Of a stretch of DNA of 64,000 bases, positions 4,143-5,751 are shown piece by piece. The notes beneath the pieces are model-generated. The model was given only the letters and a program-made list of their open reading frames with translations. It had not been told where the DNA came from and ran no database searches. The position numbers were made by a program, and so were the translations under genes. This DNA comes from Chitinophagaceae bacterium (lineage in GTDB: Bacteria > Bacteroidota > Bacteroidia > Cytophagales > Cytophagaceae): positions 1 through 64,000 of the forward strand of contig JAQBNU010000004.1 in assembly GCA_028288365.1 (NCBI GenBank), written 5' to 3'. Each line of letters begins with the position of its first letter. Within the stretch, counting starts at the first letter, position 1.

Positions 4143-4174
4143 TTGTATCTATTGTCAAATAATGCTTATTTTTG
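4143..4174 (+). promoter_or_regulatory. trp operon promoter (TTG-N21-TATTTTTG)
   Basis: TATTTTTG at 4167-4174 matches TAnnTTTG, with a TTG at 4143-4145 at a spacing of 21, inside the range of Bacteroidetes promoters. Transcription would begin at about 4180, just before the leader peptide ATG at 4193. Confidence 0.65.
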
Positions 4175-4179
4175 AAAAA

Positions 4180-4322
4180 ACGAATTAAGAACATGGTACA
4201 GATCGTAAACAAATATTGGTGGTGGGAATCATAAATCCAGCTGGTGGACACACGACCTCTATTTGTATACATTAAGATATAAAAGTAAGGCTTGCTGTGG
4301 ATCAGCAAGCCTTACTTATTTT
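4180..4322 (+). ncRNA. trp operon attenuator leader
   Basis: The leader contains the Trp-rich peptide (4193-4234) and a perfect 15-bp hairpin at 4283-4297 with 4303-4317 (loop TGGAT) followed by ATTTT, ending 17 bases before trpE. The U-run is short, so terminator strength is uncertain. A possible antiterminator pairs AUCCA (4235-4239, directly after the leader stop) with the hairpin loop UGGAU (4298-4302), which would nucleate disruption of the stem; this pairing is my inference. From memory, a structured 'Bacteroid-trp' leader class has been reported upstream of trp genes in this phylum, and this may be a member. Confidence 0.75.
4193..4234 (+). CDS. trpL: trp leader peptide (MVQIVNKYWWWES)
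   Basis: A 13-codon open frame reading Met-Val-Gln-Ile-Val-Asn-Lys-Tyr-Trp-Trp-Trp-Glu-Ser-stop, with three consecutive TGG codons at 4217-4225. It lies between the trp promoter box and a strong hairpin just ahead of trpE. Three Trp codons in a row in so short a frame, in exactly this position, are very unlikely by chance. A ribosome stalling there under Trp starvation would change folding of the downstream RNA and allow readthrough into trpE. The stop is followed at once by a Trp-codon-free segment that could pair with the downstream hairpin. Confidence 0.88.
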   Translation: MVQIVNKYWWWES

Positions 4323-4338
4323 AAAGCATTCAACATTC

Positions 4339-5751
4339 ATGAAAAAGATAAAGATCAACACCACTACTCAATCTCTGCTGGCAGACATGCTTACTCCGGT
4401 ATCTGTCTACCTGAAATTAAGAGATCACTTTCCTTACAGTTGCCTGCTTGAAAGTTCCGATTACCACGGTACGCAGGACATCTACTCCTATATAGGATGC
4501 GAACCACTGGCTTCTTTTAAAGTAGAAGAGGGAACGATCAACATTCAATTGCCTGGACAAAAAGACGAGACACGAAAAGCCACTCGCGAAACGGTAACAG
4601 AAGCGCTGTCAGATTTTATCGGTGCATTTGATACGCAAACCTTGTCTGTACCTTTTATTACAGGAGGACTTTTTGGTTACATGTCTTATGACGCGGTTCG
4701 TTATTTTGAACAGGTAGACATTTCAACATTCGCAACGGACGATCGCAAAATTCCGGATGTGTATTACATGTTCTATCGCTATTTGTTGGTTTTTAATCAT
4801 TTCAACAATGAATTGACGATCATCGAAAATCAACCGGCAGACAATACCTCTGGTTCTTCGCAGATCGAAAAAATAAAAACATTGATACAAAATCAGAATG
4901 TACCGGAGTTTGATTTTGCCTTGACTTCGGAAGAAACCTCCAACCTGACCGATGAAGAATACCTAAGTATCATTGACAAGGGTAAGCAGCATTGCCGCCG
5001 TGGAGATGTGTTTCAAATTGTATTGTCCAGAAGATTTCAACGCGGCTTCAGCGGAGATGACTTCAACGTGTACAGAAGTTTGCGTTCCATCAATCCTTCT
5101 CCTTACTTATTTTATTTTGATTACGGCAGTTTCAGGATTTTCGGTTCTTCACCGGAAGCCCAAATCGTGATCAAGGACGGAGCGGCATTTATTTATCCCA
5201 TTGCCGGTACATTCAGAAGAACAGGAGACGATGTGAAAGATTACGACCTGGCGAAAGAATTATTAAACGATCCGAAAGAAAATGCCGAACACGTCATGTT
5301 GGTAGATCTGGCAAGAAATGATCTGAGCCGACACGGTGAACAGGTAAAAGTAGAAACCTTCAAAGAAGTACAATACTATTCTCACGTCATTCACCTGGTG
5401 TCAAAAGTAAAAGGTATCCTCGAACATCCGGAAGATTACATGCAAGTGGTAGCAGATACGTTTCCTGCCGGCACGTTGAGTGGTGCACCGAAACACCGCG
5501 CCATGCAATTGATTGATCAATACGAAAAAGGCAATCGTGGATTTTATGGTGGAGCTATCGGATACATTGGATTCAATGGAGAATTCAATCATGCCATCAT
5601 GATCCGTTCCATTTTAAGTAAATACAATCAATTGTATTATCAGGCTGGTGCGGGTGTCGTGGATCTTTCTGTCAGAGAAAGTGAATTGCAAGAAGTGCAC
5701 AACAAATTGGCTGCCGTAAAAAAAGCCATCGAAAAGGCTGTTACCATTTAA
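4339..5751 (+). CDS. trpE: Anthranilate synthase component I
   Basis: The 470-residue chorismate-binding subunit converts chorismate, with ammonia from TrpG, to anthranilate. The feedback-inhibition motif LLESS (36-40) is intact, so tryptophan should inhibit the enzyme. The catalytic half carries FPAGTLSGAPKHRAMQLID and GFYGGAIGYIGFNG, both family signatures. The longest frame starts at 4297, but that codon lies inside the attenuator hairpin; the ATG at 4339, after the hairpin, gives the normal N-terminus (MKKIKINTTTQSLLADMLTP). First structural gene of the operon; trpG starts 13 bases after its stop. Confidence 0.96.
   Translation: MKKIKINTTTQSLLADMLTPVSVYLKLRDHFPYSCLLESSDYHGTQDIYSYIGCEPLASFKVEEGTINIQLPGQKDETRKATRETVTEALSDFIGAFDTQTLSVPFITGGLFGYMSYDAVRYFEQVDISTFATDDRKIPDVYYMFYRYLLVFNHFNNELTIIENQPADNTSGSSQIEKIKTLIQNQNVPEFDFALTSEETSNLTDEEYLSIIDKGKQHCRRGDVFQIVLSRRFQRGFSGDDFNVYRSLRSINPSPYLFYFDYGSFRIFGSSPEAQIVIKDGAAFIYPIAGTFRRTGDDVKDYDLAKELLNDPKENAEHVMLVDLARNDLSRHGEQVKVETFKEVQYYSHVIHLVSKVKGILEHPEDYMQVVADTFPAGTLSGAPKHRAMQLIDQYEKGNRGFYGGAIGYIGFNGEFNHAIMIRSILSKYNQLYYQAGAGVVDLSVRESELQEVHNKLAAVKKAIEKAVTI

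Follow-up and report, generated by a model that had tools for sequence, protein, structure and literature searches.

The DNA analysed here (the window, 64,000 nt in total) carries the operon trpEGDCFBA on its forward strand, preceded by a leader region that separates it from the divergent lysA gene. Pfam assigns the downstream genes as trpE, G, D, C, F, B and A. The source genome is a draft of 180 contigs with 92% completeness, and its closest named relatives are Cytophagaceae and Cytophaga. The features of the leader region, all on the forward strand, are as follows:

4143..4174, forward strand: promoter, with TTG (the -33 box) at 4143-4145, a 21-nt spacer and TATTTTTG (the -7 box, TANNTTTG) at 4167-4174, read from the sequence
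4170..4296, forward strand: covariance model match to Rfam RF01692, Bacteroid-trp (42.1 bits, gathering score 49)
4193..4234, forward strand: leader peptide MVQIVNKYWWWES, 13 codons plus stop, UGG codons at 4217-4225 (sequence and frame test)
4205..4225, forward strand: strand 1, with three UGG codons inside (MFE fold and 1:2 permutation test)
4249..4270, forward strand: strand 2, partner of strand 1 (4251-4270) or of strand 3 (from 4249) by folding
4283..4299, forward strand: strand 3, the terminator 5' arm plus the loop start, partner of strand 2 in the antiterminator by folding
4283..4317, forward strand: intrinsic terminator 3:4, 15 perfect pairs, stem 4283-4297/4303-4317, loop UGGAU at 4298-4302 (sequence and MFE fold)
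4303..4317, forward strand: strand 4, the terminator 3' arm, followed by the weak tail AUUUUAAA at 4318-4325 (sequence)
4339..5751, forward strand: trpE, first gene of the operon, which extends to 11041 (Pfam PF00425, PF04715 and others)

A first-pass annotation of this DNA had described a promoter box, a WWW leader frame and a perfect 15-bp hairpin before trpE, and all three are read directly in the sequence. The promoter is of the Bacteroidota -33/-7 type with a predicted transcription start near 4181; a sigma-70 consensus scan of the region was uninformative, because the organism uses TTG/TANNTTTG. We collected 94 leaders with terminators, 88 of which were left after removal of duplicate genomes. 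In 54 of the 94, TANNTTTG occurs at most 100 nt 5' of the Trp codons, as compared to 6.4 expected, and 47 of those 54 also have an upstream TTG. The U-tract 3' of the hairpin at 4283-4317 is weak, as had been remarked. Folding of the leader RNA yields -46.5 kcal/mol, and since this corresponds to z = -6.2 against 200 dinucleotide shuffles, the structure is not a product of chance. On the minus strand of the window, a lysine- and alanine-rich histone H1-like repeat protein of 92 aa is encoded at 2277-2555, adjoining lysA.

The codons of the leader peptide are ATG GTA CAG ATC GTA AAC AAA TAT TGG TGG TGG GAA TCA TAA; its 5' UTR has about 12 nt and lacks a Shine-Dalgarno sequence. Trp-rich leaders lie 75-280 nt upstream at nearly every trpE locus, the loci having been found by TrpE alone and not by an RNA model. 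A recognisable leader is missing at L034 (deletion), L037 (contig end), L039, L060 and L097. Because the UGG codons double as part of a helix, their conservation alone is no proof of translation, and a frame-blind search for TGGTGGTGG was therefore used. This motif is present in 47 of 75 trpE upstream regions (shuffle frequency 0.00027), and its Trp register is an open ATG-to-stop frame in 46 of the 47 cases, as compared to 2 and 6 for the other registers. The distance from ATG to the Trp codons in these leaders ranges from 2 to 11 codons. Some automated leader calls, e.g. those for L033 and L035, begin at a farther-upstream in-frame ATG; the nearest ATG gives MTNNVNKYWWWES and MTNSVNKYWWWES. 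Such conservation of the Trp-register frame favours translation of the leader and, along with the conserved helices described below, supports the Trp-codon-controlled attenuation claimed by the first-pass annotation. Obvious leaders rich in His, Thr or Phe were not found upstream of hisG, thrA or pheA, respectively, of the same genome; ilvD, which was also checked for a leader-peptide attenuator, sits downstream of another ORF.

The match to Bacteroid-trp spans model positions 1-131, which is the full length and includes the 1:2 stem around the UGG codons. No other match in the genome is as good (E 0.0022 genome-wide and 0.0017 locally, as compared to 7.15 for the runner-up), and its score remains below the gathering score, a threshold set in curation. 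The orthologous leaders of two sister genomes from the same genus are above the cut-off (53.0 bits for L007/L033 and 50.4 bits for L008/L035); their trpE proteins are 89-91% identical to that of the window. Cytophaga leaders score 65-68 bits; the laboratory strains Cytophaga hutchinsonii and C. aurantiaca also carry an orthologue of the leader. The match precedes trpEGDCFBA in a Bacteroidota host, as in other members of the class. Just seven of 292 genomes of the order and three of the 19 W-leader loci tested pass the cut-off. The RF01692 cut-off is too strict for the class, and most such leaders are missed. The window leader is a sub-threshold, divergent orthologue of the known class Bacteroid-trp, the class that had already been suggested. 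The Rfam model alignment covers 1:2 and ends inside the terminator 5' arm; the 2:3 and 3:4 helices are absent from the model.

Three mutually exclusive helices were computed for the window leader. The naked RNA folds into 1:2, in which 4205-4225 pairs with 4251-4270, plus 3:4, with p12 of 0.71 and p23 of 0.00. Folding with and without a ribosome over the leader had been proposed earlier, and the 2:3 helix indeed appears when the leader is hidden. When the RNA was trimmed as far as the edge of a ribosome sitting at the Trp codons, with the terminator 3' arm not yet made, strand 2 (4249-4264) paired with 4283-4299 at -13.9 kcal/mol. This 2:3 antiterminator can coexist with neither the 1:2 stem nor the 3:4 terminator. 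With a ribosome on the first Trp codon, p23 rises to 0.72. Once the full 3' arm is exposed, p34 equals 0.98 at equilibrium even with a stalled ribosome; since 3:4 wins at equilibrium, antitermination must be kinetic. For an exposed RNA end at 4308, which roughly corresponds to a polymerase on the U run as judged from a 14-nt exit footprint, the stalled state gives p23 of 0.74 and p34 of 0.00, as compared to p34 of 0.33 for the free RNA.

The same calculation was applied to the 88 leaders. The mean p23 rose from 0.22 for naked RNA to 0.67 once a ribosome was stalled at the Trp codons, and it was 0.15 when the ribosome stood at the stop codon; the window leader responded with a change from 0.05 to 0.58. 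As a positive control, the E. coli trp leader gave 0.00, 0.61 and 0.09 by this method, and the behaviour of the set is therefore classical. When compared to dinucleotide-shuffled versions of strand 2, the 2:3 duplexes have a mean z of -2.5, with p <= 0.05 in 69% of leaders. To exclude shared ancestry or composition, similar leaders were collapsed to 38 clusters and their partners permuted 10,000 times. The own 2:3 pairing averaged -12.9 kcal/mol as compared to -9.2 (sd 0.41) for permuted partners, and the own 1:2 pairing -13.8 as compared to -11.0 kcal/mol; none of the 10,000 permutations was as good in either case. The sequence of the terminator loop varies by clade, and the strand-2 partner varies with it. 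Examples of such loop/strand-2 pairs are GUCAUCCC/GGGAUGA in Spirosoma, UGUUCACG/CGUGAACA in Cytophaga, CUAACACAG/CUGUGUU in Chitinophaga costaii and GGUUUUUCC/GGAAGAACC in L028 and L030. In most relatives strand 2 captures the terminator 5' arm plus the loop. The test for 2:3 is weak or negative for some leaders, including the window, L043, L010 and most Pedobacter, and the conserved antiterminator is claimed for the set of leaders and not for every member. Loss of the WWW frame or of the hairpin in relatives had been named as evidence against an attenuator; both are kept.

Taken as a whole, the locus is very probably an orthologue of Rfam Bacteroid-trp that controls the trp operon by ribosome-mediated transcription attenuation, and folding points to the ordinary 1:2/2:3/3:4 scheme as its most likely mechanism. 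The helices, leader frame, promoter type and conservation were computed; from them we infer the ribosome stalling, the transcript end and the response to Trp. Soon after the onset of transcription, a ribosome would begin to translate the 13-codon leader. When Trp-tRNA is scarce, it would stall on the UGG codons at 4217-4225 and hide strand 1, leaving strand 2 (4249-4270) to pair with the emerging 5' arm and loop start (4283-4299). This 2:3 pairing would delay the hairpin at 4283-4317, and RNA polymerase could read into trpE. When Trp is plentiful or the leader remains untranslated, 1:2 would form and leave strand 3 free, and the resulting 3:4 hairpin would end transcription near 4320.

The window differs from its closest relatives in the terminator loop. 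Its hairpin at 4283-4317 is identical to the reverse complement of the L034 hairpin at all 35 positions, with the loop UGGAU in place of AUCCA, and the loop orientation is likewise inverted relative to L033 and L035. This inversion is either a private change or an assembly artefact of the draft genome. It is apparently behind the weakened 2:3 duplex of the window (-10.7), which is no better than shuffles of strand 2 (z of +0.48 as compared to -2.1 in the sisters). These data could indicate a damaged attenuator, with the operon attenuated near-constitutively or poorly regulated in this strain, and the possibility of an assembly inversion bears on that reading as well. We consider such damage unlikely: an alternative 2:3 fold, CACACGACC/GGCUUGCUGUG, still forms at -13.8 kcal/mol, near the -14.1 kcal/mol of the sisters, and the response of p23 to the state of the ribosome is kept. 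The inversion also makes the loop at 4298-4302 match the AUCCA at 4235-4239, from which, together with the weak U run, the first-pass annotation had suggested that the antitermination step may differ from the 1:2/2:3/3:4 scheme. The complementarity is real, with five perfect pairs, and a role of the loop holds in the sense that strand 2 of most relatives pairs with it in addition to the 5' arm. However, antitermination through AUCCA itself, as a peculiarity of this genome, is very improbable. The forced AUCCA-loop fold reaches -10.8 kcal/mol as compared to -13.9 kcal/mol for the ordinary 2:3, i.e. about 3 kcal/mol worse, and AUCCA would lie under any ribosome that stalls at the second or third Trp codon. 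Moreover, L033 has AUCCA but the opposite loop orientation, and L035 has ACCA instead. The suggested departure from the classical scheme is thus not borne out, the 2:3 antiterminator of the masked fold being conserved across the 88 leaders.

Explanations that dispense with the leader peptide are even less probable. The perfect stem and the T-rich sequence that follows it on the minus strand would suit a terminator or insulator that is fixed and does not switch, placed between the divergent promoters of lysA and trp, with the leader frame incidental; yet such an element needs no leader frame, 1:2 or 2:3, all of which are conserved across species of differing sequence, and we give this explanation hardly any weight. 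The least probable explanation involves the other known modes of trp control, namely a T-box, TRAP, or translational control or reinitiation at trpE, which govern trp genes elsewhere. The Rfam scan of the window returned no T-box or other family above threshold, a gap of 21 nt lies between the hairpin end and the trpE AUG, which the hairpin thus leaves uncovered, and the in-frame Trp codons are conserved. Ribosome-mediated attenuation by the ordinary scheme therefore remains the preferred reading.

Under ordinary attenuation the position of the stop codon matters. In most leaders the stop follows the last Trp codon at a distance of six or more codons, so that strand 2 is covered by a ribosome on completing the peptide. 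In contrast, two codons separate WWW from the stop in the window leader. With a ribosome at this stop and 12 nt covered, p23 stays at 0.60 and 2:3 is still available, whereas a ribosome at the stop blocks 2:3 in most relatives (median p23 0.06). This short type accounts for nine of the 88 leaders, six of which are the window, its two sisters and three Cytophaga leaders. With the stop so close and 2:3 left available, the Trp-replete branch needs prompt ribosome release; as judged from the footprints, termination in rich medium should depend, in short-spacing leaders, on the ribosome leaving and 1:2 reforming. Tentatively, and with somewhat less than even confidence, we propose both that Bacteroidota trp attenuators share a 2:3 helix capturing the loop and the 5' arm, and that a Cytophaga-type subgroup including the window terminates via ribosome release followed by 1:2 refolding, and not by a ribosome parked over strand 2, its stop having moved close to the Trp codons.

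Weinberg et al. (2010, PMC2864571) listed Bacteroid-trp as an RNA of Bacteroidetes with a probable cis-regulatory function. The window leader resembles it in its position before trp genes in Bacteroidota, the Trp-codon leader, the UGG-containing 1:2 and the conserved AAGGCUUG terminator start; the differences are the score of 42.1 bits, below 49, and the short WWW-to-stop distance and inverted loop, which are local features. The locus itself is the expected regulator, a known class with two small local differences. With E. coli trpL it shares tandem Trp codons and exclusive 1:2, 2:3 and 3:4 helices, and when calculated in the same way both respond alike to the position of the ribosome. However, the two differ in phylum and sequence, in the short 5' UTR and missing Shine-Dalgarno of the window leader, in the pairing of strand 2, which in many window relatives takes in the terminator loop in addition to the arm, and in the effect of a ribosome at the stop codon, which hides strand 2 in E. 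coli (p23 of 0.09) but not in the window genus. Within the same phylum, the parts consulted of two papers on Flavobacterium psychrophilum note Bacteroid-trp before its trp operon (PMC6414381) and report strong clues in the transcriptome for leader peptide attenuation in the 5' regions of amino-acid biosynthesis operons (PMC9723704). These are genome-scale observations, and the parts consulted do not describe a 2:3 antiterminator. Our literature search, which covered main texts, found no experimental test of trp attenuation in Bacteroidota. The comparative set adds a two-state model, open to testing, for a class that is represented by only one helix in the catalogue. Because attenuation that depends on ribosome position needs a ribosome close behind RNA polymerase, the wide conservation of these leaders is also indirect evidence for transcription-translation coupling in Bacteroidota, at least at trp.

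Several variants of the leader were observed in individual lineages. At L034, a clean deletion of about 215 nt near 1380 (corresponding to 667-881 of L033) lies between the lysA start and the Trp codons; it removes both divergent promoters and the leader peptide and keeps segments 2, 3 and 4, and it represents either a natural loss or an assembly error. In the Pedobacter-type leaders (L079-L084, L086, L087, L090, L092, L098 and L104-L106, mostly Pedobacter), a W-x-W-R motif (WQWR or WLWR) replaces WWW; the peptide has 25 codons and a C-terminal ..CTL, and several of these leaders show weak 2:3 pairing. In the Spirosoma-type genomes L047, L057 and L065, a tRNA gene lies directly before the trp leader, about 250-350 nt upstream of trpE. 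Marivirga sp. ANT-B6 (L044) and Fulvivirga lutimaris (L052) have a tandem pair of complete W-leader attenuators, located about 140 and 270 nt upstream of trpE, with leaders MSAITVNTLGWWQFLI then MKTNKLNIRVWWWHFDYVD and MKKNFKNNAWWWHFLK then MRNKQILSWWWHLTIPTD, respectively, and one terminator per attenuator.
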